Positions 18,214 to 49,226 of a DNA stretch of 64,000 nt are shown here, one piece after another; the stretch's first letter is position 1; every line of letters starts with the position of its first letter. The position numbers and the translations under genes were made by a program. The notes beneath the pieces were generated by a model. The model worked only from the letters and a program-made list of their open reading frames with translations, made no database searches and was not told the DNA's origin. The stretch is from Dactylorhiza incarnata (lineage: Eukaryota; Streptophyta; Magnoliopsida; Asparagales; Orchidaceae): the NCBI GenBank assembly GCA_033032865.1, contig JAWHQI010000019.1, forward strand, positions 8,288,001 to 8,352,000, in the 5' to 3' direction.

Positions 18214-18471
18214 TGTTGAAAATGTTGAAGTGGAATTTTGTGAAGTTGGCGGTCTGGGGGGAGACCGCGCGGTCTGGTCTGACCGCACTGTCTTACGGTC
18301 TCCTCTGGCGGTCTGACCTCTCTTGTCTAGCCGCGGGATATTCGGCGTGATCGCCGTTCTTCTGTCCAAGGGTGCCAAGGTGAGGTCGCGCGGTCTGGTC
18401 GTGTGACCGCGTGGCAAGCTGGTGTAATCTCACGATTTGGTGCTTGTGATCACGTGGTGGGGGCAGCCCGG
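18214..18471 (+). repeat. Copia-2 5' LTR, first piece
   Basis: TGTTGAAAATGTTGAAGTGG start, identical to the 3' LTR start at 31930. It ends at the Z1 duplication CCCGG (18467-18471). It carries the first part of the GCGGTCT array (AGACCGCGCGGTCTGG at about 18260-18275). Confidence 0.95.
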
Positions 18472-20172
18472 TGATGCGTGTCGGCAAGTGCACCGGTCGC
18501 GCAAGTAATAAATTTTGGGAATAGAATTCCCGAGTGTCGGTCTCTTGAGGAACACAGTAAGGTGGAATTTATTATCGAGGAAGGACTTGAGATCGAAGTC
18601 CTGCGGTAGATGGAATGCGAACGAAAGGGGCTTTGAGGTTTGCAAACAAAAGTAAATACTACGCCTACTCCTATGCAATGCCGCTATGCAATGCTTCGAT
18701 CGGCGGGAAGGAAACTAGGCAGGCCTTGAGCGTGCTGTGTCGAAAGGGCGGATGGACGAGAAGGCTAACAGGAACGAGCCATGCAGGCCTTGAGCGCGCT
18801 GCTTCGTTAGGCGAGTGGAATACGGGCCGCGATGCCACGCTTCGGTGCCGAATGGGCGAGTAGGCTTACGGATTGAGGGTCGCAAGCACCTCATCGACAA
18901 GCACGCCACTAGAAATTGCTAGTGCGGCACCGGACATGGTGGTGGAGCGGAAAATCGATGGGGGCGCACCTCATTAACACAAATGAACAAATTGATTTCA
19001 TAAACATGAAATAAACAATACTAAACATGATTCATAGTGTTCATCATCAAGATAAAGAGAATACAACAAATATAACCACACAAGTAGAAGAAAAAGGCAA
19101 GAAATACGACCGAATCCGGAGTCTCGTTGTAGATTCACGGTAGGAAGCACCGGGTTGTCAATCCGCGTCCTAGCTCGGTCCCAACTGCGTCCGGGGTAGA
19201 GGAGGGCTGTCACACCTCCCAATGGACCCGTCTTCTCCAGCGATTTACCATCCGGTCACGTCTACTGCGAAGAACTTCTTCCTTAGCGATCAAAATGAGT
19301 GTAGAATCTCTTCTTTCAAGCCCTTGGATGATGGAGGAGGCCTAGGGGGTGAAAAACCTCTGGAAATGGCGAAAACGGCGGACTGAACGGAGTCCAAATG
19401 CATAATCCTGACCTAATTCGCGATCAGGTCATTATATAGGCGCTGAATTAAACAGCGCGCACGGTCATTGGCGCACGACCAGTGGTCGTGCGCACTAGAA
19501 TCCTGTGATCGTGCGCCTGTCTGGGTGGAACCTGCAAGACACGAAATTTATAAAATAAAATGTTCGCACGACCAGTGGCGCACGACCGGTGGTCGTGCGC
19601 ACTATCGTCGGTGGTCGTGCGCATTAGATGAAACAGAACTCATAAAATAAATGTTAAGTGCGCACGGACAGTGGCGCACGACCGGTGGTCGTGCGCACTG
19701 GAGTTGACGGTCGTGCGCACTTCAGCAAACAGAACTCAGAAATTTAATGGCAAATGCGCACGAGCAGTGGCGCACGACCGGTGGTCGTGCGCGCTGGCAT
19801 TGGTGGGCGTGCGCACTGCACCAAACAGAACTCGTGAAAAGAAGGTTAAGTGCACACGATCAGTGGCGCACGACCAGTGGTCGTGCGCAATAGAACCGGT
19901 GATCGTGCGCAGTGTTCCTGTGCAGAATTGCACCGGGAACACTTGCACGACTCCTATTCCAGCTCAACCACAGATCTAGCCACTGAAAGTGGCACTTGAC
20001 AGCACATGAATACTACTAATGACAATAAGCACGAAAATCACACCAAAGTGGGCCTAGATGTGCACCTAGCATGGATTATCAAATATAAGCTATAACAAGG
20101 CTATAGTGCGGTGAATTGACTAAATAACGACCCGGATGAGTCCCTAAATGTGTATATGATCAGGACTCATCA
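18472..20172 (-). repeat. Z1 3' LTR
   Basis: Begins TGATGCGTGTCGG and ends GACTCATCA on the plus strand. The minus strand has a TATA box (CTATATAAT, 19432-19440) just downstream of the array at 19450-19935. Confidence 0.96.
19450..19935. repeat. GCGCACGACCAGTGGTCGTG motif array in Z1 LTR, in units of about 95 bp
   Basis: Five units start near 19457, 19564, 19660, 19755 and 19851. Each carries three or four copies of CGCACGACC / GGTCGTGCG, the middle pair forming a palindrome such as GCGCACGACCGGTGGTCGTG. Unit spacers share AAACAGAACTC. The second LTR has the same array at 26150-26640. The four to five open frames through it are repeat products. Confidence 0.9.
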
Positions 20173-20186
20173 CACCCCCAGACTTA
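20173..20186 (-). other. Z1 polypurine tract
   Basis: The minus strand reads TAAGTCTGGGGGTG immediately before the 3' LTR. Confidence 0.92.
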
Positions 20187-21581
20187 ACTGTTTGCGCGTC
20201 TCGAGCAAACGAATCCGGCGGAGTGTGAAAACGATAATTAACATAGAGAATTACACAAAGGAGTACGGTGCGAAGTAACATACGCATGCAAGTAGAGAAT
20301 TTAGTAGAAGGAGATTCTAACTATGCTAACTAATTTACAAGAGTATTAAAGCGTAATTAAAGATTTAGATGTACTCAATTGGTGAGTTATGAAGAATTTG
20401 ACGATCATGCCCGGTATGAAAGTGACGAGACACTGAGGCGGGTGTTGCAGAAGATCGGGGCTTAGGAATAACTCCGCTGAAATCCATCAACGTCGTGAAC
20501 CATACGCTTGCCCGGTCACACTCTCTCCACGGCGCTAGCAAACTTGCAAATCAAATCAGTAGGGCTTATAGGATTAAAATGGGGCTTAGGTTACGGTATG
20601 ATATTCAAAGTTAAACACGGCGGCTACGCAACCCAAGTGAGCTAACGGAACGCTGCACCACGCAAGACCAACAACTATGCTCGTGTGACACACCCCCAGA
20701 CTTATCATGAAAACCAGGTGTGCACACGGCCTACTTCAAAAATACCAACAGATTGTCTTTTTTAGCTCGGAAGGATTTTTTTAAAATACTCTCTTTTTTT
20801 CTTTTAACATATTTTACTTCTTTTATGTATCCTCCGGTTGGATCAAAATCAGCAGATAGACTTTATTCCCCTTTCATGACACAATGATTCCACACACCAC
20901 ACATGTTGAGACTTATGAGCGCAGTTAAAAACATTTTGGTTGCGGGAGTAGGATAGGCTTCAGGCTTTGGTGGATGAAGAGGAGCTGTACAAAGGAATGG
21001 TAGGCACAAAATGGGCTTGCAACGGTGAACGAAAAGGACATGGAATAACAAAGCTCAAACTAGCCAAATGGTGGCCTACATCATGCTTAACTCAACGAGT
21101 AGCTCTCACCCATGCTTCGAGAGTCGCTTGGGGCAAGTTCTTAGCCCACGAGAAAGGTAAACCTTCCTCCCGACTCGAGCAACACACGACTAGTAATCGC
21201 ACACACACAACACCGGGTTATCGTCAATTCCATACAAATTCACCACTTGAGTATATTAAATCTAAATTTACGCAGAAATACTAAACATAAATTAGATGCA
21301 TAAAGAAAATCTAGTTCTACTCAAATTCTACCATAGCATGCAAAGTGACTAGAACACTACATGAGTCAACATCGCACTCCAAATAATAATTCCTACGTTA
21401 ACAACCTATTTCATACTCCAACCAAGATAGTTTACAACGGAACAAAAACAAAAAGATAAGCGCGCACTCAAGTGGGTGAAATGGTGTGTGAAACATGGAA
21501 AACAACGATAATGATAAGATAAATAAGAATCAACCTTCTAGTATGCGGTGCAACTCGTGCATAGTGGATAACAACAACCGC
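20187..21581. other. Non-coding 3' region of Z1
   Basis: No credible ORF. A second copy of the polypurine motif (plus strand ACCCCCAGACTTA) lies near 20694. Sequence around 21110-21145 (CGAGAGTCGCTTGGGGCAAG) is conserved in Z2 near 52835, on the matching strand. Confidence 0.7.
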
Positions 21582-21595
21582 TCCCCCAGACTTAG
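21582..21595 (-). other. Internal polypurine tract of Z1
   Basis: The minus strand reads TAAGTCTGGGGGAG, about 1.4 kb upstream of the terminal tract. Z2 has the same motif at 52370 at nearly the same distance from its 3' LTR. It could be a second plus-strand start, like a central polypurine tract. Confidence 0.6.
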
Positions 21596-21650
21596 TCTAA
21601 ACAATATATCTAGAAATTTGAAGCTAAAAGAGGGGAGGAAGCGTTACCCC

Positions 21651-21668
21651 ATGCTCAGAAATGAGCAT
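21651..21668 (-). other. Conserved hairpin in Z1
   Basis: ATGCTCA-TTTC-TGAGCAT on the minus strand: a 7-bp perfect stem with a 4-base loop, followed by GGGGTAAC. Z2 has the identical hairpin at 52290-52307, in the same place before the internal polypurine tract. Confidence 0.75.
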
Positions 21669-22081
21669 ACCAGACGATTGGCGTTTACGATCAAAAGCAG
21701 TCCGCAGCATCCGCCATCACAAGGAACAAAGACCCACCTGAAAGTGACACTAGAAACAGCAAAAATAGTAAAAACTGAACTAGACATGCGAGAGCACTAA
21801 AAATTAAGAAATCTGGGTTATCACCCATGAAAGTGAACCTGTTCCTGCAATTAAAATTAAGCACTCGCACATAAGATAAAGGAAGCAAAATATGCTGAAT
21901 TCAAAAAAACTATGCCCGGAGGAGCATCCAAAGGCAAAATGCTATTATTACAATTAACAAAAGAGAAGGAGTTCAAGCGACTCCACAAAAGACCGAAAAA
22001 AACAGCAAGACAAAAGAAGAAAACAAGGCTTCGAATAGCTCGCACACAGGGAGAAAGATCACTCGTCGTCGTTGTCGCTAT

Positions 22082-23326
22082 CTACAACCACAACGGACGG
22101 CGACCGTCTGGAGATGATGTGGCCCGACCCGGAGGTGGGGGAATATTTAACCCTCCCCGCAATGCTTGCTGATAAACGAAATCCGTCAGCCAATACTGAT
22201 TCGCTTCCAGATCGGAGAGGCGCCGATCGAAACTTGGCACCTCCGGCGCTCTAGAAGAACTGCCCTCCTCCTTGGCTCTCCGCTCCTGCTTAAATGAATG
22301 ACTTCGTGGCTGCGGAAGGGCTACCTCGCGGTGAGTATTTGGCGGTTCAGCCGGCTCTCCGTGCTCCTCGTCGTCCTGCCTCTCCTTGGGCGCATCTCCC
22401 GGCATCACGACCACAAAGCGTCTACTACTCTTCTTCCCCACGACCCGTAATAGATGGAAACTCACCATGGTGGCCCGAGTGATGAAGGAGGGCGCAGTCA
22501 CCTGCACCATCGGAGGCAGATGACTCCAAACCCCCAGGCTTTTGGCAATGCGGGTAATATAGTAGGCACCACCAATGGCACCTGTGAGACCGTAAGTGGC
22601 CTCGTGGTGGAAGAAGAAAGCTAGCATGTAGCCAAGATGCAAAGGCTGCCAAAATTCCATACTATAAAGGGAGATCAGATCTTGCCACCCCACCACATTC
22701 TGACTAAGGGCACGGGCGACAAGAGAGTGGCTAAGGACGTGTTGCAGGAAACGGAGAGAAGGCGCGACGATCCAGGTAGATTTGCTTTTCCTAGCAACAT
22801 ATTCTTCATCACGACCCGTGAGAGCACACCACGCAGTACGCGGGGTGACACCATCAGGGAAGGAGACATTCAAATCCAGAAAAGGAATCGCTGCAGCCTC
22901 GGCTTCGGTGTAAAAGCCTGCGTGCACCGCCAACTCGGATAAGGACAGAGTGAAGACCTTGCCCAACATTCGGAAAGAGCACTTCCCTGGACGTTTACCG
23001 GAGGGCAACACATCCCACTCAAACGTAGCAAGGAACTCCAAGGTAAGCTCCCGGTAGCCGAGGTCATTGCACTCGAACACCCCACTCCAATGATTGAAAT
23101 AATAACGTTGGCGGACGGCCTCCCCCAACTCTCCATTGTCGCCGATGGAATTTAACTCGTTCCAATCCACCAGACGCTGCGATAGGAATGGCTTCTCCTT
23201 GAGAGAGTTGAATCGCCTCGTGTGCGAATCTTTGGAAAAAGTAGCCATCCTAGCGAGGATCTGAGCAGGAGAGGAGGAAGAGCGGCCGGAGCGTTGGTAG
23301 ACCTTTTGGCGATCTCTGGAGCTCAT
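22082..23326 (-). CDS. ATHILA ORF1-like accessory protein of Z1
   Basis: 414 codons, uninterrupted, ATG at 23326 in the context CCACCATGA. It resembles the ATHILA ORF-1 family of plant retrotransposons (Pfam PF03078 by recognition, not by search). Points seen are YYFNHWSGVFECNDLGYREL near residue 75, LEFLATFEWDV, GKVFTLSLSELAVHAGFYT, then DGVTPRTAWCALTG. A long globular region of about 290 residues is followed by an acidic, proline-rich C-terminal tail (PKERQDDEEHGEPAEPP) and a short basic stretch. No membrane segment or zinc motif. It has its own TATA box (23481-23490) and motif array (23500-23560) upstream. Family function is unknown; a DNA-binding or regulatory role is my inference from the array. 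Confidence 0.82.
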   Translation of the reverse strand: MSSRDRQKVYQRSGRSSSSPAQILARMATFSKDSHTRRFNSLKEKPFLSQRLVDWNELNSIGDNGELGEAVRQRYYFNHWSGVFECNDLGYRELTLEFLATFEWDVLPSGKRPGKCSFRMLGKVFTLSLSELAVHAGFYTEAEAAAIPFLDLNVSFPDGVTPRTAWCALTGRDEEYVARKSKSTWIVAPSLRFLQHVLSHSLVARALSQNVVGWQDLISLYSMEFWQPLHLGYMLAFFFHHEATYGLTGAIGGAYYITRIAKSLGVWSHLPPMVQVTAPSFITRATMVSFHLLRVVGKKSSRRFVVVMPGDAPKERQDDEEHGEPAEPPNTHREVALPQPRSHSFKQERRAKEEGSSSRAPEVPSFDRRLSDLEANQYWLTDFVYQQALRGGLNIPPPPGRATSSPDGRRPLWL

Positions 23327-23480
23327 GGTGGTAGGAGGGCAAAGGAAAGAGAAGAATCGGAAGTGGGCTCACCGGAAGGAAGGAGGGCGCACGATCGGCG
23401 GCAAACCAGCGGAAGCGGCGCGCGGGCGACGAACGAAGAAAACCCTAGAGCGTGTGTGAAAGGCTCGGGCGGACGGGAAT

Positions 23481-23490
23481 TTTATAAAAA
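23481..23490 (-). promoter_or_regulatory. Internal TATA box before the ATHILA ORF1-like gene
   Basis: The minus strand reads TTTTTATAAA, about 155 bases upstream of the ATG and just downstream of the internal motif array. It suggests a separate transcript for this gene. Confidence 0.65.
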
Positions 23491-23499
23491 ATCTGGGCC

Positions 23500-23560
23500 G
23501 ATCGCACGACCAGTGGTCCTGCGCGATAAGTAGTGCGCACGACCAGTGATCGTGCGCCTT
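23500..23560. repeat. Internal copy of the Z1 LTR motif array
   Basis: Two palindromic units are present: GCACGACCAGTGGTCCTGCG, and CGCACGACCAGTGATCGTGC close behind. They match the LTR array (CGCACGACCAGTGGTCGTGC). The surrounding sequence is unrelated to the LTR. Confidence 0.85.
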
Positions 23561-23764
23561 AGGAATTTTCCAACGGCCAAAATTTTAGTAGAATGTCCAT
23601 CCACCGTGCAGTTTACGCACAAACAGGAATCAGCACAAGCAGCGAGGTATTCACAGCCTTAACAAAACTTAACTAAACTAGACAAAATAAAATTTCAGGA
23701 AAAAGAAAGATAACTACTGGGGTTACTGTCATCCCAGCACGACTTATTCGAAAACATAAAAGTC

Positions 23765-24958
23765 CTAGCTAATGGGCCTATGGAAGAGAAAATGCACAGG
23801 TAACTGTTCCAATATCCGTTTCGGTTGCGGGTACCGATACGGTGATAGAACAGTCACCCCGCTACCTAAATAAAGATACCTACTCCCCACAGGTAGAGGG
23901 TAGAGAATGTAAGAAAAGGAGGAGGCCTGGTCCTTACTCATCTCACGAAACACATCCTTGCTTAGCAAGGTATCGTCAACAGCAAGGTGGCAGAAAGAAA
24001 AGGCAATGAGTGGAGCTTCCTCTACGGAGGGAGAGTAAACCTCCTCGCATGAGAGGATGCTCGCATCATTGACTTGAGCACACAGCTCCAAGTCCTCCTG
24101 ATGTACCCGTGAAGACTCAACCTGCAAAGGCTCAGATGAAGAAAGGGGATCAAGAAATAAATAAGGCGAAGAACATAAATCATCAATCGGGGAAGTGATC
24201 CCGGTCTCACTCCCATCAGGTTGGGGCAGTAAAATAATGTTAGCATTGTCATCAATGCCACAAGATTCGGCGGGATCAACGGTGGCCAGGCTTAGGATTT
24301 GGACTTCCTCCACCGGTGTTGAGGAAGACTCCTCTTCACCTAGAAGGTTGTCCTCCTCCATAGGAATAGGCACAACACTCAGATCACCCACCTCATCCTG
24401 CGACACATCATCAACAATGTCGTCGGGGATGAGAATAGTATGCGCGATAGGGGGAAGAATCGAATCCACTAGAGGTGGTGGATGCACATGGAGAATAGGC
24501 TCAACAATGTCGGTGCATAAATCAGCCGCACATCCGGTGACCGTATCCAGGCCATACCCTTCAAGATGCGAAGGTGGCAAAGACACATACCCGGATGTTG
24601 AAGGTGTGCCGCCAGAGTTAGGAGTTGGGACGATCCGGATATCCGGCTCGTCATCCTCGTCCAATTGGCGAAGATACTCGGCACAATCCTTCAAGACATG
24701 ATCAGTGCTCCGACAAAACCGGCACTGCCTTACGGACTTCTTTGGCGCAGCGGGAGCTGGAGCCGAAAAGAAGTATGACGGTAAAGGCTCAGCAGAGTAG
24801 CCATAAGACTTACGCGCACCATATGGAGTACTAGACGAAGTCGGTGCTCCATATGCTGGGCTATAAGAATTATGCCTACTATTCTCCGTAGGGCATTCAT
24901 CACTAGAGTGAGAGGTATCTCTACACCAACGGCAACGGATATTAAGATGTGCCCACAT
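23765..24958 (-). CDS. Gag-position protein with two CCHC zinc knuckles (Z1)
   Basis: 397 codons, open throughout, ATG at 24958, about 190 bases after the primer site. Two CX2CX4HX4C motifs occur: CRWCRDTSHSSDEC at residues 9-22 and CRFCRSTDHVLKDC at about 79-92. A Ser/Tyr/Pro-rich linker separates them. The rest is acidic (DDEPDIRIVP; EEDNLLGEEESSS) with no match I recognise. The position right after the primer site is that of gag, but I see no capsid-like region. Z2 has a diverged homologue (50895-51722) with both knuckles kept. An RNA-binding role is inferred from the knuckles. Confidence 0.85.
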   Translation of the reverse strand: MWAHLNIRCRWCRDTSHSSDECPTENSRHNSYSPAYGAPTSSSTPYGARKSYGYSAEPLPSYFFSAPAPAAPKKSVRQCRFCRSTDHVLKDCAEYLRQLDEDDEPDIRIVPTPNSGGTPSTSGYVSLPPSHLEGYGLDTVTGCAADLCTDIVEPILHVHPPPLVDSILPPIAHTILIPDDIVDDVSQDEVGDLSVVPIPMEEDNLLGEEESSSTPVEEVQILSLATVDPAESCGIDDNANIILLPQPDGSETGITSPIDDLCSSPYLFLDPLSSSEPLQVESSRVHQEDLELCAQVNDASILSCEEVYSPSVEEAPLIAFSFCHLAVDDTLLSKDVFREMSKDQASSFSYILYPLPVGSRYLYLGSGVTVLSPYRYPQPKRILEQLPVHFLFHRPIS

Positions 24959-25148
24959 AGTGTAAAAATAAAACGATTCTCAATAAAAACGCTACTGCAC
25001 AATACTACACCTAACAATGACTACTAAAGCAACCTAAAATAAAACAGGAAAATAGAATACGAAGAAATAAAAACAAAGAAACGCAATTTACAAATGGAAG
25101 GGCTTCTCTCTCAGGTTCTCCCTCTCCAGAAAACTCACACGACTGTGT

Positions 25149-25166
25149 TCCCCGGCAACGGCGCCA
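25149..25166 (-). other. Z1 primer binding site (tRNA-Asp)
   Basis: The plus strand TCCCCGGCAACGGCGCCA equals the 3' end of plant tRNA-Asp. It stands 6 bases from the 5' LTR. This primer is characteristic of Athila elements. Confidence 0.92.
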
Positions 25167-25172
25167 AAAACT

Positions 25173-26873
25173 TGATGCGTGTCGGCAAGTGCACCGGTCG
25201 CGCAAGTAATAAATTTTGGGAATAGAATTCCCGAGTGTCGGTCTCTTGAGGAACACAGTAAGGTGGAGTTTATTATCGAGGAAGGACTTGAGATCGAAGT
25301 CCTGCGGTAGATGGAATGCGAACGAAAGGGGCTTTGAGGTTTGCAAACAAAAGTAAATACTACGCCTACTCCTATGCAATGCCGCTATGCAATGCTTCGA
25401 TCGGCAGGAAGGAAACTAGGCAGGCCTTGAGCGTGCTGCATCGAAAGGGCGGATGGACGAGAAGGCTAACAGGAACGAGCCATGCAGGCCTTGAGCGCGC
25501 TGCTTCGTTAGGCGAGTGGAATACGGGCCGCGATGCCATGCTTCGGTGCCGAATGGGCGAGTAGGCTAACGGATTGAGGGTCGCAAGCACCTCATCGACA
25601 AACACGCCACTAGCAATTGCTAGTGCGGCACCGGACATGGTGGTGGAGCGGAAAATCGATGGGGGCGCACCTCATTAACACAAATGAACAAATTGATTTC
25701 ATAAACATGAAATAAATAATACTAAACATGATTCATAGTGTTCATCATCAAGATAAAGAGAATACAACAAATATAACCACACAAGTAGAAGAAAAAGGCA
25801 AGAAATACGACCGAATCCGGAGTCTCGTTGTAGATTCACGGTAGGAAGCACCGGGTTGTCAATCCGCGTCCTAGCTCGGTCCGAACTGCGTCCGGGGTAG
25901 AGGAGGGCTGTCACACCTCCCAATGGACCCGTCTTCTCCAGCGATTTACCATCCGGTCACGTCTAGTGCGAAGAACTTCTTCCTTAGCGATCAAAATGAG
26001 TGTAGAATCTCTTCTTTCAAGCCCTTGGATGATGGAGGAGGCCTAGGGGGTGAAAAACCTCTGGAAATGGCGAAAATGGCGGACTGAACGGAGTCCAAAT
26101 GCGTAATCCTGACCTAATTCGCGATCAGGTCATTATATAGGCGCTGAATTAAACAGCGCGCACGGTCATTGGCGCACGACCAGTGGTCGTGCGCACTAGA
26201 ATCCTGTGATTGTGCGCCTGTCTGGGTGGAACCTGCAAGACACGAAATTTATAAAATAAAATGTTCGCACGACCAGTGGCGCATGACCGGTGGTCGTGCG
26301 CACTATCGTCGGTGGTCGTGCGCATTAGATGAAACAGAACTCATAAAATAAATGTTAAGTGCGCACGGATAGTGGCGCACGACCGGTGGTCGTGCACACT
26401 GGAGTTGACGGTCGTGCGCACTTCAGCAAACAGAACTCAGAAATTTAATGGCAAATGCGCACGAGCAGTGGCGCATGACCGGTGGTCGTGCGCGCTGGCA
26501 TTGGTGGGCGTGCACACTGCACCAAACAGAACTCGTGAAAAGAAGGTTAAGTGCACACGATCAGTGGCGCACGACCAGTGGTCGTGCGCAATAGAACCGG
26601 TGATCGTGCGCAGTGTTCCTGTGCAGAATTGCACTGGGAACACTTGCACGACTCCTATTCCAGCACAACCACAGATCTAGCCACTGAAAGTGGCACTTGA
26701 CAGCACATGAATACTACTAATGACAATAAGCACGAAAATCACACCAAAGTGGGCCTAGATGTGCACCTAGCATGGATTATCAAATATAAGCTATAACAAG
26801 GCTATAGTGCGGTGAATTGACTAAATAACGGCCCGGATGAGTCCCTAAATGTGTATATGATCATGACTCATCA
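25173..26873 (-). repeat. Z1 5' LTR
   Basis: 1701 bp, same length as the other LTR. TATA box on the minus strand at about 26132-26140 and motif array at 26150-26640. Several of the differences from the other LTR are C-to-T or G-to-A changes at CpG inside the array. Confidence 0.96.
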
Positions 26874-26878
26874 CCCGG

Positions 26879-36995: not shown

Positions 36996-37749
36996 TGTAA
37001 AACCCCGATATTCGCCAGGCAAGGAAACCGAGCGAGACAGGAGTAGCGAGATCCAGACCTCGCCGAGATCGGCCCCCAGCCGATGAGACCTCGGCAGATC
37101 ACCAAAATGGGCAAGCGAGGTCCTCGCAAGGCGACCCTCTAAAAGAGGCGTCGCGAGCAGTGTTTGCGAGAAGACCCGCGAGAGCTCCGTCAGCGGGGTT
37201 CTCGCAAGGCGACCCTCTAAAAGAGGCGCCGCGGGCAGGATCCGCGAGAAGACATGCGAGAGCTCCGACAGTAAGGTTCTCGCAATCCTATATCCATAAA
37301 TCATTAGGGTCAACTTACCCTTTTACCCTTGGTGGCCTGCCCCTAGCCTCTCCAAACAGCGGAGCTTGCTTGTTAGCAGACCCATTTGGGGTGCGGATAG
37401 TAAAATCAAAAGGCGGAATCCTGTTAGTTGCAGACCAGATCAGGAAATCTATAAATAGGACCTTAAGGTCACCTTTGGAGGGCAAGTCACTTCAGCTTCC
37501 CTCTCCTTAGGCTTTCTTTGGTTAGCATTTCCAGAGTTCTCCAAGGTGCCCAAGTCTCAGTTTTGGCTTGGGAGGGGAAGCGCTCAACGATCTTACGGGT
37601 TAGTGGAGGGACCTCCTCGCTGTGACTAAGGTCTTAGTCAATTTCATAATCTTCCGTCTACCCTCCTCGAGGGATCAGTAAGGGCTAGCCGTCCCTCATT
37701 TTGGTGAGGGCCCCGAGCTCTACGAGAGACCGAGAAATCGGTTTCAACA
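36996..37749 (+). repeat. Element E 5' LTR
   Basis: TGTAAAACCCCGATATTC to CGGTTTCAACA. Array of GCGAG motifs at 37025-37300, including a duplicated unit with GGCGACCCTCTAAAAGAGGC at about 37130 and 37209. TATA box TCTATAAATA at 37448-37457. Confidence 0.95.
37025..37300. repeat. GCGAGGTCCTCGCAAGGCGA motif array in E U3
   Basis: About fifteen CTCGC/GCGAG cores, many as inverted pairs (GCGAGGTCCTCGC). The same motif fills the noncoding parts of the antisense region (44070-44420, 46680-46990, 48270-48300). Confidence 0.85.
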
Positions 37750-37752
37750 TTT

Positions 37753-37770
37753 TGGTGCGGTGAGCGTGGA
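37753..37770 (+). other. Element E primer binding site (tRNA-Phe)
   Basis: TGGTGCGGTGAGCGTGGA is complementary to the 3' end of plant tRNA-Phe over 18 bases. It stands 3 bases after the LTR. Confidence 0.85.
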
Positions 37771-37805
37771 GCGTGGCTGGTTCAGGAAAGTTCAAGAGAA
37801 AGGTT

Positions 37806-39346
37806 ATGACGGGAGACGAAGAATAAGGCGAGGAATTCGGCGAGACAACCCAGGTGGCGATGGCCAGGATGCTCGCAGATTTCAGAAAGGAAGTGCTCGA
37901 TACCTTAGGGTTTACGGTCACAGCTCTGCGAAACGAGTTTGCGACCCCAACACCTCAGGTGACCCCTCCCCCAACGACGGTTGGCTAGAATGCCCCGGGG
38001 GGAAGGGCTGGAAAGGAAGTTGTCGTTGGATCAGGACAGGACAGGGAGGGGCGAGTGTTGTTCGCCAGTCCGGCGAGCCCGAGGCCAGCGAGCTCCGCGC
38101 AGGCGAGCGCCGGGCTGGCAAACTCAGTGCCGACAAGCTCTGTCCCAGCGAGCACGGCGAGCGCCGCCCTCGCTAGTGCAGTCACGATAAGCTCTAGTCT
38201 AGCAAGAGAGCTTGGGGGGCGAGTGGAGCCAGAAAGGGTGACAGGAGGGGGAAGTCCCTTTTGCGAGTTGGTGCTTTCCGCACCCGTCCCAGGGGGGTTT
38301 GGAGAGTGGGATCGGGTGTACTACAACGGTAGGGATGACCCTGTCCAGCACCTGCAGAGTTTCGAAGACTCGGTCTCCATCAGGCCGATGTCAGATGCCT
38401 TCAAGTGTCGGCTCTTTGCCGTCACCCTCAAGGAGAAGGCCAGGGACTGGTTCCATCAGCTCCCTGCAGGATCAATATACGCATTCGAGGATTTGCGCCG
38501 AAGTTTTTTGGTGAGGTTCTCGACCTCAAAAAAGAGGAAGAAGGACGCTGATTCCCTCTTCAAGGTGAAGCAGGAACCCAGGGAGTCATTGGATCAATAT
38601 GCCGATCGGTTCCAGGAGGAAGTGCAGCTCACTCAGGAGATGCCTGGGTTCGCACTCCAACTCGCCTTCACGGTCGGGTTGAAAGAAAGTTTCTTCAAGA
38701 TGTCGTTGAAAAGAAAAGCCCCCGTCTCCTATGAGGAGCTGATGGAGAGGCTGTCAGAGGAAGTCGCGAGTGAAGAAGCCAACCCAGAGCTCACCAAGAC
38801 GCTAGCAAAGCTCTGTGAGCCGGAGGTGAGGCAGCAGGAGGTCAGGAGAAGGGAAGAGCCCCGGGCCCCAGAAGGGGGATGGAGGCCGCAAGGCGGAGGG
38901 GTGCAAGGGCAGGGAAGGGGTTACGGCCCAGGAAGGGGTAACCACGTCGGAGGTCAATGGAGACCCCCCCAGTTAGGGTGGAGGCAAGGTCTGATGCAGA
39001 TGCCTCCCCCTCCCCAATAGGCTATGGCAATTGGAAGGGGAAGAGGAAGAGGAAGGAGAGGCGAGGTAGAAACAGCAGCCGCTTGGAGGAGAAGGAATAG
39101 GGTGGCGGAGGCCGATGCAGGGGAGGTGACGTTGCCATATTGTATCTTCCATGATGAGGAAGGTCACTCAACGAACACCTGCCCAGAGTTCCTGGAAGTG
39201 AAGAGAGGCAGAGCGCCCGCGCCACAGCAGCTGCAGCCAGTAAGGATCGTGGAGGTCGAACCTCGAGAGGAGGATCAGGAAAGGTGTGAAGATAGAAACG
39301 ATGTGGGGAATATGGGAGGGATCGGGGTGATCCATGGGGGGGGGGG
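37806..39346 (+). pseudogene. Element E gag
   Basis: One frame carries the whole gag from ATG at 37806 (MTGDEE) with stops TAA at 37824, TAG at 37986 and TAG at 39018. Seen: MARMLADFRKEVLDTLGF, a Ser/Ala-rich spacer, then the retrotransposon gag core (VYYNGRDDPVQHLQSFED; ARDWFHQLPAGSI; DLRRSFLVRF; ESLDQYADRF), an Arg/Gly-rich tail, and a Tat-type zinc knuckle CIFHDEEGHSTNTC near 39140. The frame is lost in an 11-G run at 39336-39346, where pol continues in another frame. Stops look like point changes of Gln or similar codons. Confidence 0.88.
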
Positions 39347-42300
39347 TGGAGGCGACCCGCAAGGCTAGCCTCCATACCATCTACCGCCGGAGCGTAGCTT
39401 CGACATCCACCGCTCCACCCCCGGCCGAAAAAATCATTTTCACCCAGAAGGACATGCCGGGCTATGAGGACCCATTCTGCGACGTGCTGGTCATTCAGAC
39501 GGTGGTCGAGAACTTCACCGTCTCCCGAATTTTAGTGGACAACAGGAGTTCGGTCAACGTCATCTTCAAGAAGGCGTTTGACAAGATGGAGGTGGAGCAT
39601 AGAAGGGTGTTGGCCTCAGATGGCCCTCTGTTTGGATTCTCAGGGGAGAGGAAAGAAGTGGAAGGGGGAGTAGGACTTCATGTGACCCTGGGTGGGCAGT
39701 CCAGGAACTGTCGTTTTGTCATAGTGGACGCTCCAAGCAGTTACATCGCCATCTTCGGACGACCACTCATCAGCGCGTTCCGCTGTGTCCCCTCCACCTT
39801 TCATCAATGCCTTAAGTTCAACGACGGAGGGGTCCAAGTGCGTATCAAGGGGGATCCCAAGGTGGCAAGGCAGTGCTACGTGACGGCTGTCAACACCATC
39901 TCCTGGATAGGAGAAGCGGAGGAATGGGATAAGATGATGGAGGAAGCGGCCGAAGCCGGAGGTAAGGAGGTAGCCGAGGAGAAGTTGGCGGGAGATGAAG
40001 TCCATGCCCAGGAAGGGGTAGCTGAGGGACCCCAGGTGGAAGGAGAGGAAGAAGAAGAGAAGGCCCAGGAGGGAGGGGCGGAGGAGCTGATGTTGGTAGA
40101 GAAGGAGGTCGAGGAAGGAACCCAGGCTCTCACTTGTGCCGAGGAGGAGAGGGCTTGGGGAGAGCAGTCCCGGTTGGAAGTGGTGGACGAGGTCATGGAG
40201 CTCGAGGTCACCACCCGGCTGGGGGTGGTGGAGAAGGCCCGGGTCAGCGGAGGTCTCAACCCGGAAGATCAAGTGGAGATCCTGGCTTGCGTACAGAAGA
40301 ACGTGGACGTCTTCGCTTGGAGCGCCGCGGAAATGCCCGGGATCGACGCGGATGTGGCTTGCCATCGCCTCAACCTCGACCCTGGCACCCGCCCCATCCT
40401 CCAGAAGAGGAGGGCCATCGCCGACAAGCTGGAAGGGCCCATCCACGAGGAGGTGGGCAAGCTCCTACAGGCAGGCTTTGTATCGGAGATCCAGTATCCA
40501 GGCTGGGTCTCCAACGTCATTATGGTAAAAAAGGGAGGAGGTAAATGGAGGATGTGTATCGAGTTTTCTTTGCTTAATAAATCGTGCCCTAAGGATTGTT
40601 ACCCCCTGCCTAGAATCGACGCGCTGGTTGACTCAGCCGTCAGTTTTCCTGTGATGTCTTTCTTAGATGCTTTTTCAGGTTACCATCAAATCCGCATGCA
40701 CCCCCCAGACATCAAAGATGTCTCCTTCATCACGGGGGATGGATGCTACTGTTATAAGATGATGCCGTTCGGGCTCAAGAATGCAGGGGCCACATACCAA
40801 AGGATGATGGACAGAGTCTTCCGCGAGCAGAAGGGAAGAAACTTGGAGGTTTATGTTGATGACCTCATGGTGAAGAGTCGAGACCTTGGGTCTCACCTCC
40901 AAGACCTTGAGGAGACGTTCGGGACCCTGCGGCGGTACAAGATGAAACTCAATGCCTTGAAGTGTGTCTTCGGGGCAAGGCGAGGAAAGTTCCTAGGCCA
41001 CTTGCTCACCCCCGCGGGAGTGGAACCTAACCCGGACAAGGTTAGGGTGGTGATGGAGTTGGGGTCGCCGAGGAATCCGAAGGAGGTTCAGAGCCTTACA
41101 GGGAAGTTGGCTGGGCTCAGCAGGTTTCTCTCCAAGGCGGGAGAAAAGTGTGCGCCTTTCTTCAAGGTGCTACGGGGCAACAAGAAGTTTGAATGGACCC
41201 CGGAGTGCGAGAAGGCCTTCCAGGCTCTGAAAGAACAACTCACCCAGACCCCTCTGCTCCAGGGGCCAAGGCCAGGAGAAGACCTGTCCCTGTACCTGGG
41301 GGTAGGGTCCTAAGCAGTAAGTTCCGTGTTGATCCGGGAGGAGGGGAAGAAACAGTTCCCTATCTACTATGTCACCCGAGTGCTGAGGAAGGCGGAGCTC
41401 CGGTACCCGATCCTGGAAAAGTTAGCCTTCGCATTGGTGGTGTCGTCCCGGAGACTCCGGCCTTACTTCCAAGCTCATTCGATCAAGGTAGTGACAGATC
41501 ACCCGCTCCATAAAATCATGGAAGGGGTGGAGCACTCGGGAAGGTTGGCAAAGTGGTCCGTGGAGTTAAGTGAATTCAATGTCACGTTCATGCCCAGGAC
41601 GTCCATCAGGGCTCAGGCAGTGGCAGACTTCATGGCTGACTACGCGGCCGAGGTGGGGGAGCACGAGCCACCTCCCCCAGAGGCATGGAAGATGTTGGTG
41701 GACGGAGCATCGGGGAAGTACTCCTATGGAGGGGGGATAGTCCCGGTGAGTCCCCAGGGGACCCGGATTGAACAAGCCTTGAACATCCATTTCCCAATTA
41801 CCAACAACCAGGCTGAGTACGAGGCAGTGATAGCGGGCCTTCGGCTGGCCCGAGAACTAGGGGTGCAGGACGTGGAGGTCTCAACGGACTCCATGGTGGT
41901 AGCATGCCAAATCAAGGGAGAGTTTGAAGCGAAGGACCCGACCCTCCTACTATACCTGGAGAAGGTCAAGGGGATCATCAGGCAGTTCCGCACCTTCTCT
42001 ATCAAGCACGTGCCGAGGGAGGAGAGCATCCAGGCGGACCTCTTAGCCAAGTTCGGTCCCCGAGCGGGAGGGACGGCTTCAGAACTCTTCCGGCCCTCCA
42101 TCGAAGAAGGGGAGTTGATGGAGGTGGACCGACGAGCCTCGTGGATGGATCCATTCATCACCTTCTTGTCCTCCGGAAGGTTCCCTGGAGAGGACGTGGA
42201 CAAGAGACGCTTCAGGTATAAGTCCACCTATTACTCCTTGCATGCAGGAGGGCTATATAGAAAGACCCTCTCGGGACTCCTGGCCTGTTGTGTCTCCGAG

Positions 42301-43364
42301 GAGGAGGTTCCGAGAGTGCTGGAAGAAATCCACTCCGGGGAGTGCGGCAGTCACTCCGGGAGTCGGACCCTGGAAGGGAGGGTGTTGAGGCAAGGCTACT
42401 TCTGGCCCACTCTCAGCAAGGATGCGACAGAGTTCGCGAGAAAGTGTCCGAAGTGCCAGCTCTATGCTCCGCTCCAACTCCTCCCAGCTCAAAGGCTCCG
42501 GACCATCACGGCTCCCTGGCCCTTCGCCATATGGGGGCTGGACCTGGTCGGTCCCTTCCCCCAAGTCAGCGGCCAGAGGAAGTTCCTGCTGGTCATGATC
42601 GACTACTTCTCCAAGTAGGTAGAAGTTAAAGCACTCGCTAAGGTAACCTCTCAGGTTGTGTGGGGGGAGATAATTTGCAGGCACGGGCTCCCTCTAGCTA
42701 TAGTGACGGACAATGGGCCGCAGTTCACCAGTGAAGAGTTTGTTCGCTTCTGCACTCAGCTCGGCATTGACCTCAGGTTCGCATTGGTCCACCACCCGAG
42801 GAGTAATGGGCAGGTGGAGGCGGCGAACAAAATAATCGTTAACCTATTAAAAAAGAAAGTGGAGAACCTTCGGGGAAACTGGGTGGAACATCTACCCTCC
42901 GTCCTCTGGGCCATGAGGACTACTCTGAATACCGCCACTGGGGAGACTCCATTCAAGCTCTCTCACGGGTCCGAGGCCGTTCTCCCCATAGAGTTTGAGG
43001 TAAAGACCCCCCGGGTGATCGCTGCGAGCGAGGGGGATGAAGAGTGGCTAGAAGATAACAATGCAGAGCAGAGGTTGTCTTTGGACCTGGTGGAAGAACT
43101 CCGGGACTTGGCCACCATCAGGCAGGAAGAGGTCAAGCGACGGATGGCTCGATATTTCGACAAACATATCCGGATAAAGCACTTTTAGAAAGGAGACCTA
43201 GTCCTGAAGAAGGTCGATGCGGCCGGCAGAGGGGCCGCGGTAGGTAAGCTCAACCCCAACTGGGAGGGACCATATATTGTAAGTGAGGTGCTCAAGTCAG
43301 GGGGTATCACCTCCAGGATGTGGAAGGGGTACCCCTCGACCGAGCCCGAAGTGGGGATGATTTG
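39347..43364 (+). pseudogene. Element E pol: protease, reverse transcriptase, two RNase H domains, integrase
   Basis: Protease near 39525-39560 reads LVDNRSSVNVI where the family has D-T/S-G, so the catalytic triad is lost. Reverse transcriptase 40500-41000 has SFLDAFSGYHQI, PFGLKNAGATYQRMM and YVDD near 40855. The first RNase H follows to about 41640, then a second one at 41695-42060 (DGASGKYSYGGG; ITNNQAEYEAVIAGL; STDSMVVACQI), the hallmark of Tat elements. Integrase has HSGECGSHSG and CPKCQ (zinc), DLVGPFP, TDNGPQFT and NGQVEAANK, with NWEGPYIV at the end. Stops: TAA at 41311, TAG at 42616, TAG at 43186. Otherwise well kept. Confidence 0.93.
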
Positions 43365-43459
43365 AAAAGGTTTTACCCTTGAGAGCTTTATTATGTTGTT
43401 TAATTAATGTCTTACTCATTTTTTATGATGCTTATAACTACTTGCCGTGACGGCGTGAC

Positions 43460-44045
43460 AAAGGTTGGATATGTTGGTGCTGGAATGCCCCAGATCGATT
43501 CCGCTCCCGGGCTCTCACCTAGACGGGGGGTTCAGGTTGATCTCTGGAGAGGCTGGCAAGGTTGGATATGTTGGTGCTGGAATGCCCCAGATCGATTCCG
43601 CTACCGGGCTCTCACCTAGACGGGGGGTTCAGGTTGATCTCTGGAGAGGCTGGCATGGTTGGATATGTTGGTGCTGGAATGCCCCAGATCGATTCCGCTC
43701 CCGGGCTCTAACCTAGACGGGGGGTTCAGGTTGATCTCTGGAGAGGCTGGCAAGGTTGGATATGTTGGTGCTGGAATGCCCCAGATCGATTCCGCTCCCG
43801 GGCTCTCACCTAGACGGGGGGTTCAGGTTGATCTCTGGAGAGGCTTGCAAGGTTGGATATGTTGGCGCTGGAATGCCCCATATCGATTCCGCTCCCGGGC
43901 TCTCACCTAGACGGGGGGTTCAGGTTGATCTCTGGAGAGGATGGCAAGGCTAGATATGTTGGCGCTGGAATGCCCCAGATCGATTCCGCTCCCGGGCTCT
44001 CACCTAGACGGGGGGTTCAGGTTGATCTCTAGAGAGGCTGGCAAG
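43460..44045. repeat. 97-bp tandem repeat, six copies
   Basis: Units start near 43463, 43560, 43657, 43754, 43851 and 43948, nearly identical. Each contains GGTTGGATATGTTGGTGCTG and ends GATCTCTGGAGAGGCTGGCA. It lies between integrase and the antisense genes. Since 97 is not a multiple of 3, the frames rotate and give overlapping artificial ORFs. Confidence 0.95.
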
Positions 44046-44555
44046 GGTGACAGGTCTTTATACTGGAAGGTTCCGTCTCGCTCGGCGGACAGGCCCGCTC
44101 GGCACAGAGAAATTTCGCACACCATGCGAGTGGCGAGAATCAATCTTATGCGATCCAGAACAACCGGTCCCCGGCGGAAAGGTTGCCGGCACCGGGTAAG
44201 AGGTGAGCTCTCGCCAAGAGGAAAAATGCCTTGCGAAACCTAGAGAAAATACACATAACTAAAAGGGTAGTAATCCCAAGGCAAACGACGAAAGGTCCGA
44301 GCAACCAAAGTATCCTATACCTATGTATTCAATAACGCACAGCGTGAGAACAATCATCGCGAGAATAGCCTCCACGAAGGCGGATATCGAGATAAGCGAG
44401 GGCGAGACATTCAACGAATGAAAATTGCAAGACAGGAAAAGGAAGGCACAATGAGCAAAACAAAATTTGCATTCAACATTTCATAGTTCGGTTACAATCT
44501 TCGGCGATCTCGCCGATCATAATTACAGCGCAAAAGAAAAGAATAGCGGCGAGCT
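44046..44555. other. Non-coding region with GCGAG motifs
   Basis: No gene. Scattered GCGAG motifs at 44070-44420 (for example GCGAGTGGCGAGAATC). It forms the 3' flank of the antisense gene. Confidence 0.6.
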
Positions 44556-46523
44556 TCAGGAACCACCTGCAGATCCTTCTTCGTCATCACTGTCCTTCAC
44601 GGGCTGAAGAGGGAGGAAGAGCTCCGGGACGACGTCTTCCAGAGTCATGTCGACCGCATCATCAGCCAAGAGGCCGATCGCCTTCACCACCGAAAAGATG
44701 TAGCGAGCTGACTCTATAGATCCCACGCGGATTTCTTCATCTCGCGCTCGCCGGTCTTCTTTTAAACGGCGAGGTGAGAGGGTAACAACCGCGCGAGTGA
44801 GGTCGCAGTTTAGGGCCTTCAGCCCAGCCACCTCGCCCTCCAAATCCTCGATGCGAGCGTTGGCTCTCCCGGCGGCCTCGACATCCTGCAAATTTCAATT
44901 AGAGAGGCGAAATGGCCAGGGGAATGGAAGATGGGGGAGGTCTAGATGACTCACCACACTGCCCTCCGCGACGAGCAGCTTCTCCTTTAGCTGCACGTTC
45001 TCGGCAAGAACCCCCTGGTAGGCCCTCACGAGCTCCACATTCTGGAGCTCCAGCTGTAAGCAACGCCTCCCCGTCATGTGGGCGAGCTCGGCAGAGCGCA
45101 GCTGGTACCTCGCACTCTCGTAAGCAAGGGTCCTCGCGGTCTCATCCTTATAAGACCCCGCATCCTCGCGACCATAAAGAGCGAACGCGAGGTCGAAGGC
45201 ATGACCACTGACGGTCTCCTTCTCCACCCAGGAGGGGAGGATGGAGGATATATCCACCCTGTTGGTCTCCGGCTTCCAAGTGACGAGGGGCTCACCAGTC
45301 TCGTCCCGGCGCCTCTGGCCGAGGCCGAAGTTGTAGTGGTTCACCGGGATGGGGAAGACGGAGGTCCTAACCGTCTCCTGGCAGGGCTCTTCGTCCTCGC
45401 CCCCCGAGAGGCCGGTAAGGTCAAACTCGTCGAAGGCGGCCTCGCGAGGTTCCTTACCCTTCGAAGGAGCGAGCAAGACCGTGCTCTTCTTGCTCTTCTT
45501 CTTGGGCGGAGATTTCGAAGGGGCAGCATGACTACCAGAAGCCCCCGATCTCTTGCAATAAGGGGGCTCGGCCAGAGTGACGACGCCTCGGCAAGCTTCC
45601 GCCCCCATGGTAGCGAGAGCCATGGTAGCGTCGGTTTTCTTGGTGCTCGCGTAAGGGGGATGAAGGGGCAGATCTCGCTCGCCTAGAAACAAACAATAGT
45701 TCGGATAAGTACGATATGTTAGCGAATAAAGACAAAGGTGTTAGGCGAGATCTTTACCTTCTCCGGCGAGAACCGGAGGTAGCGAATCTAGGTTGCGGCG
45801 GAGGTAGACGACTTCAAAGTTCTTCTTGCAGAAGAATTGATGGAGGAGGGCGTCATGGCCGCCGAGGGCGATGGGCCGGTAGGTGGTCTCGCTATGTTGA
45901 ACTGGCGAGAGGGGAATGTTGCCGAAGTTCCCCTTGACGACGACGAACTTCTGGGCCCAGAAGTGGGCCTTGTTGACGGTCTCGACCACCTTCGGACCCG
46001 TGCCCACAAAGTAGGCTGTCCCATCTTTGTAGGCGCGGAATGAGAACAGCTTCCGGAAGACCGGGAGGCTGAACTCGATGCGCTCCTCGCGAAGGTAGCA
46101 GGCGAAGGCGGTGACCACCGCCATGGCATTAGGAGTGAGCTGGCCGGGAAGCACCCCATAGTGTTTGAGCACCTAATGAGCAGCGAGAACAGGATTAGTC
46201 TGCACGGCGAGCGAAACTCGAGTGGCAAAAAAAAGGGAAATATGCGAGAGCGATTATTACCTGGCGGACTTCCGGCCACAATGGAAGGCACAGACCGACC
46301 GCGAAATGGGCGGTAGGAATGGCCAATTCGTCGACCAACGGGTCGTTGATCACGTCATCCTCGCTGGGGCGGCGTGCCTCAAACGGGGGGGGGGGGGGGG
46401 GGTGACGTAGTCAGCGACCGCGGTGAAGTATTCCTCATCGGTCAAGTTACAAGTAAAGAAGCTATGCTCGGCGAAGGCCTTCGCGACCCTTCACCGACCC
46501 TCCGACTCCGCGACACCGCCCAT
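44556..46523 (-). pseudogene. Antisense spliced gene of E (Transposase_28-type), four exons
   Basis: Exons on the minus strand: 46523-46261, 46172-45758, 45682-44955 and 44885-44556, all with GT donor and AG acceptor, joined in matching phase. The junctions read PEVRQ/VLKHYG, AGEG/ERDLP and EGSV/DVEAAG. Together about 570 residues. The first half (VLKHYGVLPGQLTPNAMAVV; FRKLFSF; FWAQKFVVVKG) has the pattern of the putative gypsy-type transposon family (Pfam PF04195 by recognition). The C-terminal half is a coiled-coil-like region followed by an acidic tail. Breaks: a TGA near 46493 and an 18-base C run (46385-46402) in exon 1; exons 2 to 4 are open. TATA box at 46637-46646. Decayed copy at 1311-1822 plus 16539-16922. 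Function unknown. Confidence 0.8.
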
Positions 46524-46636
46524 CTTAGCAACCTGCGAGAAAGGATGAAATATGAAAACGAGAAGAAGCGAGAGCTCTGAAGCAGAGGAAGAAGAAGGTC
46601 GAGAGTAAATGTGGTGGTTGACTCAGTTAAAACCGC

Positions 46637-46646
46637 CTATTTATAG
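46637..46646 (-). promoter_or_regulatory. TATA box of the four-exon antisense gene
   Basis: The minus strand reads CTATAAATAG, about 115 bases upstream of the ATG. GCGAG motifs crowd the region just upstream of it (46680-46990). Confidence 0.65.
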
Positions 46647-46679
46647 CCAAAGCAAAAGGGCGGGAAGAAGTCCAAGCGC

Positions 46680-46967
46680 CGGCGAGCGCGGGTAGCAGTA
46701 AAAACATCACATCATGGCCATGGGTGAGATGGACCTGCAAGATTAGTATAAACATCTTTTGCGGGATACGTCTAGCGAGAATAGAGGGTCTTCGCGAGCA
46801 CAATATAACAACTAAAATAGATCCATAGACAGCGAGCGAGAGATCATAAAAAAATAATGGTGATTGTCAGACAAGCCAGCATCAGTGGCAATTACGCGAG
46901 CCACGAAACATAGCGAGATCGTTCAAAAACAGCGACACCTATTACAAATAATTCCATAACATAGCAG
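46680..46967. repeat. Internal GCGAG motif array upstream of the antisense gene
   Basis: About nine GCGAG/CTCGC cores, such as GGCGAGCGCGGG, CTAGCGAGAATAG, CTTCGCGAGCAC, CAGCGAGCGAGAG, TTACGCGAGCC. The motif is that of the E LTR. Confidence 0.7.
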
Positions 46968-48122
46968 TTAGCGAGAATCATGGGGTAGCCATTTCCACCG
47001 GCCCCCACCCCATGATCCGGACCTTGGCGGTACCCTAGAATTAAAATAGTCCTCCGCCAAACGACCCTCCCTGTCCGTGAGGAAGGCGTAGTCTCTCATC
47101 CTAGCTATATGAACCTCCGGCGTCGTGGCGCTCTCATCCTGGTCACGCTGTCTCTGCTCTTCCATTAAAATCGCGTGACTGTCCTCGGCAGCTTCTCGGT
47201 CCCGCCTCGCCTGCATGTTGAGATCCATCAGCATCCTCCCATATTTCCTCAGCAACTCCGCGGTTCGCTGCTTCAACCTCTCGGGGTCTCGCAGATCCCC
47301 TAAGAAGTCCTCCACCTGGTCCGGAAGGGGGACATCTCGTCGTCGCCAAGCTCGGAATCGGTAGGCGGATTTTCGGCATTGTCTGCAAGATATTACGAAG
47401 AGGTCAGATGGCGCGCGTGAGTTCGCGCAGAGTTCCGGCGAGGTCAGAATACTTACCAAGCGGGAGGCGAGAGGTCGAGGGACGACCCTGGAACATGTTG
47501 CCGTAGTGGGGATAGAGAGATTTTCCCAAGCCGGCGGGGTAGGCTGCACTGTTGGTAGGAGGGATCTTCGGCGGCGCAGAACCCTCGGTCTCCTCGCTCG
47601 TCAAGAGCTGGAATCCAGGCTTGTCTATGATTTTGTCAGGAGGCGGAAGCGGAGACGGAGGCCGCGACGACCGGCGGACCAGAAACTTCAGGGGCGAGAC
47701 TGTAAGAAAAGAGTAACGAAGGTCATATATGGTTGACAGAAATATTATGGTATGTGAGATCCAGATCGTACCGGTTGTGTTTTTCCCAGTGAGGTTCGTA
47801 TTCACCTGCGGGCTTTTCCGAGACCCCTAAGCAAGTTCTCCAACGATCTCGCTCGGCAAAGTATCCTGCAAGTAGAAATGAATGAGGAGCAATTTATTGA
47901 CGTAAGTTGAATAGCTCATACCTTCTCGGGGCGGCAATCGTCCGGGGAGGAGTCCAGCATCACAGAGTCGTCTCCGGTGCGACGAGCAGCCTTTGCCTTC
48001 TTGACTTTCGGCGACTGGGCGGGGGACGGCCGGATCATCTTGGCGGGGACCTTGGTCGTGGAAGGTAGCCCGCCAACTCTCATCGCCTTCAGGCGAGCCT
48101 CTGCTTCTTCGGAAATCGGCAT
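46968..48122 (-). pseudogene. Second antisense transcription unit of E, probably spliced and broken
   Basis: Candidate first exon 48122-47922 (ATG, MPISEEAEARLKAMRVGG, then basic PKVKKAKAARR) with a GT donor, followed by 47865 onward (DTLPSEIVGELA, then TAG). Further down a Pro-rich segment (PPSPLPPPDKIIDK) at about 47715-47470 ends in a GTAAGT donor. A last segment 47396-46970 reads PDQVEDFLGDLRDPERLKQR and a charged helical stretch to a TAA. The exon phases beyond the first two do not join cleanly, and a shift after GDDEMSPF is likely. I do not recognise a family. Confidence 0.5.
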
Positions 48123-48187
48123 CTCCAGGCAACTAAAGTAAGAAAAGGAAGAAAAGTAACGGCGCGCGCCAATGGGGGTTCGGGACG

Positions 48188-48197
48188 ATATTTATAG
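48188..48197 (-). promoter_or_regulatory. TATA box of the second antisense unit
   Basis: The minus strand reads CTATAAATAT, 65-75 bases upstream of the ATG at 48122. Confidence 0.6.
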
Positions 48198-48270
48198 CCC
48201 ACAGGGTGGGTCCCACCAAAGATTCCTGACAGGGCATCCGGGAATGGGTGAATATTAGGGGTTGGATGAT

Positions 48271-48310
48271 TCTTCGCGAGGACATTTGACCTCGCGAAGA
48301 GCGGGGATTG
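48271..48310 (+). other. Hairpin and polypurine tract of E
   Basis: An 11-bp perfect inverted repeat (TCTTCGCGAGG, 8-base loop, CCTCGCGAAGA; 48271-48300) runs straight into the purine tract AGAGCGGGGATTG before the 3' LTR. The stem carries the family motif. Confidence 0.75.
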
Positions 48311-49064
48311 TGTACAACCCCGATATTTGCCAGGAAAGGAAACCGAGCGAGACAGTAGTAGCGAGATCCAGACCTCGCCGAGATCGACCACCAGCCGATG
48401 AGACCTCGGCAGATCACCAAAATGGGCCAGCGAGGTCCTCGCAAGGCGACCCTATAAAAGAGGTGCCGCGAGCAGTGTTTGCGAGAAGACCCGCGAGAGC
48501 TCCGTCAGCGGGGTTCTCGCAAGGCGACCCTCTAAAAGAGGCGCCGCGGGCAGGATCCGCGAGAAGACATGCGAGATCTCCGACAGTAAGGTTCTCACAA
48601 TCCTTTATCCATAAATCATTAGGGTCAACTTACCCTTTTACCCTTGGTGGTCTGCCCCTAGCCTCTCCAAACAGCGGAGCTTGGCTGTTAGCAAACCCAT
48701 TTGGGGTGCGGATAGTAAAATCAAAAGGCGGAATCCTGTTATTTGCAGACCAGATCAGGAAATCTATAAATAGGACCTTAAGGGCACCTTTGGAGGGCAA
48801 GTCACTTCAGCTTCCCTCTCCTTAGGCTTTCTTTGGTTAGCATTTCCAGAGCTCTCCAAGGTGCCCAAGTCTCAGCTTTGGCTTGGGAGGGGAAGCGCTC
48901 AACGATCTTCCGGGTTAGTGGAGGGACCTCCTCGCTGTGACTAAGGTCTTAGTCAATTTCATAATCTTCCGTCTACCCTCCACGAGGGATCAGTAAGGGC
49001 TAACCGCCCCTCATTTCGGTGAGGGCCCCGAGCTCTACGAGAGACCGAGAAATCGGTTTCAACA
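48311..49064 (+). repeat. Element E 3' LTR
   Basis: 754 bp, TGTACAACCCCGATATTT to CGGTTTCAACA. Array at 48335-48600 and TATA box at about 48763-48772. Confidence 0.95.
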
Positions 49065-49226
49065 GTTCACCACACCACATTTTGTTTGACTTTCTTCAGA
49101 AGATATAAGTAGAGATACTTGAAGTCATTGATCCTTCTCAGGGGTTTTTCTTTTTCTTAAGAAAACTTTTGGAGTTTTCATTAAAGCAATCTACAGAGGC
49201 TCAACATCTTCAGGGGACATGACTGC

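Follow-up and report, generated by a model that had tools for sequence, protein, structure and literature searches.

A 64-kb stretch of the orchid Dactylorhiza incarnata (contig JAWHQI010000019.1, positions 8,288,001 to 8,352,000; hereafter the window, whose own numbering we use) holds on its minus strand, at 18472-26873, a long terminal repeat (LTR) retrotransposon that carries an extra open reading frame (ORF) near its 3' end and in which no pol ORF was found. Judging from its sequence, this 3' ORF is probably preceded by an internal promoter that reuses the enhancer module of the LTRs. A pair of palindromic motifs (dyads) at 23504-23555 would serve as an internal copy of the LTR enhancer sites, transcription would start past an internal TATA box at about 23450-23460 on the minus strand, giving the ORF a short leader free of ATGs, and the LTR and internal promoters would answer to one shared regulator.

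The distribution of the dyad GCACGACCNNTGGTCGTGC is the first line of evidence. With up to three mismatches it occurs at 12 places (24 strand matches) in the 64 kb, five in each LTR plus the two internal ones at 23504-23522 and 23537-23555, and nowhere else; this bears out an earlier note on this DNA, which had claimed that the motif units of the two LTRs recur only at one internal site. Shuffled sequence gave a mean of 0.08 matches (100 shuffles), and at one mismatch or fewer the interior has two dyads vs none in 1,000 first-order Markov samples of its 4,999 bp. When the LTR was compared with the interior, the best match had E 1.1e-6 and the eight best matches shown all fell within 23502-23562. 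Two other elements of the window, compared in this way, gave best E values of only 0.58 and 0.98. Genome-wide, exact matches to the dyad core number 72,698 on the forward and 72,515 on the reverse strand, against 0 and 2 for a reversed control, and the viral contigs searched held neither a motif match nor a relative. The sequence CGTGCG is reported to be bound by BZR1 (PMC3343102).

The remaining parts of a promoter follow the dyads in order. The earlier note had also given the ORF its own TATA box just past the repeated motif, and rightly: the only minus-strand TATAWAW site of the interior (5' base 23486; the plus-strand site at 23483 is the same near-symmetric site) lies 17 bp downstream of the dyads, vs 34 bp in the LTR, and positions within 60 bp upstream of a TATAWAW box make up just 1.2% of the interior. 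From this box to the ORF's ATG is 160 bp. The last 129 nt before the ORF contain no ATG, vs 13 in the 1,132-nt inferred LTR leader of the gag-like ORF. Within the interior, CpGs are most numerous at the internal promoter (29 per 250 bp, observed/expected up to 1.52), which resembles the LTR array in this. Near the inferred leader start, at 23441-23448, stands AAACCCTA, which we take to be telo-box-like and which differs among copies.

Conservation among copies points the same way. A search of the host genome with the ORF protein returned 3,810 candidates, 101 of which were scored; 86 of the 101, these being the best-scoring copies, have no internal stop. Fifty copies, picked by rank or by going down the list, irrespective of promoter, were examined upstream: 49 retain both dyads and 46 the TATA box (TATA[AT]A). 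Across 49 copies, the least diverse of the 447 54-bp windows in the 500 bp upstream is the dyad pair (start -228), where nucleotide diversity (pi) is 0.013 vs a median of 0.049, despite CpG richness; the nine bases preceding the ATG have pi 0.0045. Further classes of the ORF (L070, L071 and L073) keep the dyad pair and the TATA box, and in L070 one dyad is altered in both arms with its symmetry preserved. In L072 only 23 bp, the motif, can be aligned, and the order of parts is the same: dyad-like site, half-site, TATA box.

The internal dyads also accompany the gene. Thirteen stretches were fetched from the first motif places listed genome-wide, and eight of them hold an element with both LTRs. 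In this motif-chosen sample, internal dyads, two in each case, are present in both ORF-bearing elements (L013 and L019) and, at up to three mismatches, in none of the six ORF-less ones (L007 and L014-L018), a split with a chance of 1 in 28 if the elements are independent. In this sample, as in the Sirevirus layout, LTR palindromes have copies upstream of the 3' gene only where that gene is present. Within ORF-less L015, and likewise within L018, the LTRs are identical, and the family has therefore moved recently.

Several observations weigh against an internal promoter built from LTR sites. The ORF-less elements have no stretch matching about 21718-23666, i.e. gene and promoter are absent together and therefore come or go as a unit, which weakens the co-occurrence test; the co-occurrence reflects in part a single loss or gain. 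Some of the conservation is due to descent, the copies being related. At the TATA box pi is 0.057, no better than in its surroundings, and L019 keeps the dyads while T- and A-runs replace the TATA box; since pi is low at the dyad pair and the start, constraint seems to act on the dyads and the start context, and not tightly on the TATA sequence. When the window copy is compared pairwise with L013 or L019, the dyad bins, at 92-100% identity, are unremarkable, other 25-bp bins being at 96-100%. Among 30 copies, L024 and L044 each have an ATG in the leader, and L072 and L073 each have one between TATA and start. Finally, a fair splice acceptor ends at 23778, so that the ORF could be expressed from a spliced LTR mRNA, and the internal dyad pair folds well as RNA (-37.3 kcal/mol, z -6.5).

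The ORF runs from the ATG at 23326 to the stop at 22082 and is intact, with 414 codons, as the earlier note described it; among 300 Markov samples of 20174-23600, the longest ATG-initiated ORF has 230 codons. That note's ATHILA ORF1-like label is tentative: matches to the ATHILA ORF-1 family (PF03078) are weak (E 0.23 and 0.068; 10.7 and 12.4 bits) and fall below the cut-off of 20.2, and its other basis is the single homologue from protein searches, a Linum protein with 26% identity over 54% of the query (itself without a Pfam match). No profile link of the ORF other than ATHILA was found; a single solved-structure match (E 0.41) was taken as chance, and a predicted structure was discarded (two-sequence alignment, mean predicted local distance difference test score 34). 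Purifying selection is evident from a ratio of nonsynonymous to synonymous substitution rates (dN/dS) of 0.10 between the window copy and L019, which is relied on because L019 was fetched via its LTR motifs; L013, chosen in the same way, gives 0.23 against either, and its reading frame is broken around codon 290. Over 435 pairs of ORF copies dN/dS is 0.08, a value biased low because the copies were chosen by protein similarity, and not relied on. The last eight residues of the window copy (22082-22108) are not covered by the matches to the other 100 listed copies, which span query residues 1-406 only, and this copy may therefore end differently.

One special form of the internal-promoter reading would make the ORF protein itself the regulator, binding the dyads of its own promoter and of the LTRs in a positive feedback like that of foamy-virus Tas, with or without a VANC-like removal of silencing. 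The earlier note had proposed such a self-recognising activator or anti-silencing factor, a reading supported in part. A self-activating loop is possible, but we consider an activator of this kind unlikely. To our knowledge no plant LTR retrotransposon encodes its own transcriptional activator, although the literature search aimed at this, which returned a single meeting report, is a weak check. Within the window the motif is confined to the ORF promoter and the LTRs, and purifying selection acts on the ORF of an element without pol; Tas binds both the LTR and the internal promoter, the latter initiating the cascade (PMC7390438), and VANC proteins bind to family motifs found in the tandem repeats of the very transposable elements that encode them (PMC5735166). 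Of a VANC-like protection there is no sign in the CpG decay of the LTR arrays (12/316 vs 30/762). In such a two-promoter feedback, to which we give a similarly low probability, the accessory protein would be made first from the internal promoter, sit as a dimer on the dyads, and activate its own gene along with all dyad-bearing LTRs, those of ORF-less relatives in trans.

Improbable, in our estimate, is expression of the ORF from a spliced or polycistronic LTR transcript, with the internal dyads a product of chance or a neutral LTR relic. The acceptor-like site is in its favor, as are the acceptors predicted for BAGY2 and Athila env (PMC2829016), and the internal sites align with one LTR unit at 74% identity over 65 columns, which suggests a shared origin, though either descent or shared constraint could explain it; however, CpG-rich neutral sequence should decay, and the dyads are the least variable upstream block and persist in diverged classes. 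Least probable of all is that the palindromes act as RNA hairpins, feeding small-RNA production or working in translation or packaging with the TATA box incidental: the fold of the internal pair, that of one LTR unit (z -7.1), the symmetry-preserving change in L070 and the excess of small RNAs on palindrome clusters of maize Sireviruses (PMC10760457, citing Bousios 2016) fit it, but it predicts neither the adjacent TATA box nor the link with the start of the ORF, targeting by small RNAs would not by itself select for the structure, and the LTR stretch 26155-26210 folds just moderately (z -2.4).

The element as a whole has the two LTRs, TG..CA ends, target-site duplication (CCCGG), primer-binding site and polypurine tract of an LTR retrotransposon (Table 1). 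Its LTRs are 98.65% identical, the BLAST pair being one base longer than 18472-20172 / 25173-26873, and its primer-binding site is presumably of the tRNA-Asp / Athila type. The gag-like ORF has two CCHC knuckles (C-X2-C-X4-H-X4-C) with an acidic tail after them, and no match to a Pfam capsid domain was found in it. Elsewhere in the window, 36996-49067 is a full-length Ty3 element (gag, reverse transcriptase, two RNase H-type domains, integrase) with a 97-bp x6 tandem array at 43461-44046 and, before its 3' LTR, antisense ORFs without a convincing Pfam match, a layout that we assume to be Tat/Retand-like.

Table 1. Features of the pol-less element, in window coordinates.
Feature	Position	Strand	Remarks
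3' LTR	18472..20172	-	TG..CA ends; CCCGG at 18467-18471
Dyad array, 3' LTR	19450..19935	.	5 full dyads, 96-bp period, CpG observed/expected 1.38
Polypurine tract AAGTCTGGGGGTG	20173..20185	-	
ORF1-like ORF (Athila-type 3' additional ORF)	22082..23326	-	414 codons
Inferred 5' leader	23327..23455	-	no upstream ATG; pyrimidine-rich; ACCACC preceding ATG
Internal TATA box	23478..23490	-	sole TATAWAW site of the 5-kb interior
Internal dyad, proximal	23504..23522	.	1 mismatch
Internal dyad, distal	23537..23555	.	1 mismatch
gag-like ORF	23765..24973	-	402 codons counted from ATG
Primer-binding site AGTTTTTGGCGCCGTTGCCGGGGA	25149..25172	-	adjoins 5' LTR
5' LTR	25173..26873	-	BLAST LTR pair; CCCGG at 26874-26878
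LTR TATA box	26133..26139	-	34 bp from nearest dyad
Dyad array, 5' LTR	26150..26640	.	5 full dyads, CpG observed/expected 1.28

These findings bear on how plant retroelements express extra 3' genes and what the proteins do: in an abundant family, what looks like a complete internal promoter, constrained and made of LTR regulatory sites, precedes the extra gene, and the dyad offers an exact DNA probe for asking if the two promoters are controlled by a host factor or by the protein that the element encodes. The suggestion made for Sireviruses in 2010 becomes testable in what is apparently another superfamily. Elements that lack pol and carry either gag alone or gag plus a second, env-like ORF are described among non-autonomous Arabidopsis Athila, the two types side by side and their ORFs under purifying selection (PMC2410132), and the sunflower Athila 3' additional ORF is likewise sense, a few hundred codons long and related to Transposase_32 / Athila ORF1, with nuclear localisation predicted (PMC11728184). 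Maize Grande gene23, an accessory gene in a plant Ty3 element, has its own promoter and encodes a nuclear protein; it differs in being antisense, and the review's account of it does not mention shared LTR motifs (PMC7264820). Foamy viruses share the two promoters, the internal one driving a 3' accessory gene, but are vertebrate retroviruses in which Tas binding is proven and the Tas sites of the LTR and internal promoters have little sequence in common (PMC7390438). VANDALs are DNA transposons, and for VANC21 the motif, unlike the dyad, is a 9-mer arrayed in a single orientation; anti-silencing activity, demonstrated for VANC (PMC5735166, PMC10398659), is hypothetical for the ORF protein. The closest likeness is to Sireviruses (Ty1/copia; Bousios et al. 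2010, PMC2829016), where CpG-rich LTR palindromes cluster upstream of the TATA box and extra copies stand just before the 3' gene and are absent from motif-bearing elements without it: among 13 Sireviruses with repeated palindromes, copies precede ENV in 9/9 that have it, and internal copies occur in 0/4 that do not, six further ENV-bearing Sireviruses being without the boxes (PMC2829016, Table 3 for the former counts). The superfamily appears to be another one and the motif differs, the Sirevirus core being CGG-CCG in 12/13 whereas GCACGACCNNTGGTCGTGC has no CGG-CCG arm pair; that paper terms the palindromic motif Sirevirus-specific and describes the ENV promoter as not conclusively identified. 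In the present element TATA box, leader and ATG follow the dyads, and the many-copy comparison supports constraint. A similar layout is known from Sireviruses, and what the orchid element appears to add is a clearer internal promoter with visible conservation.
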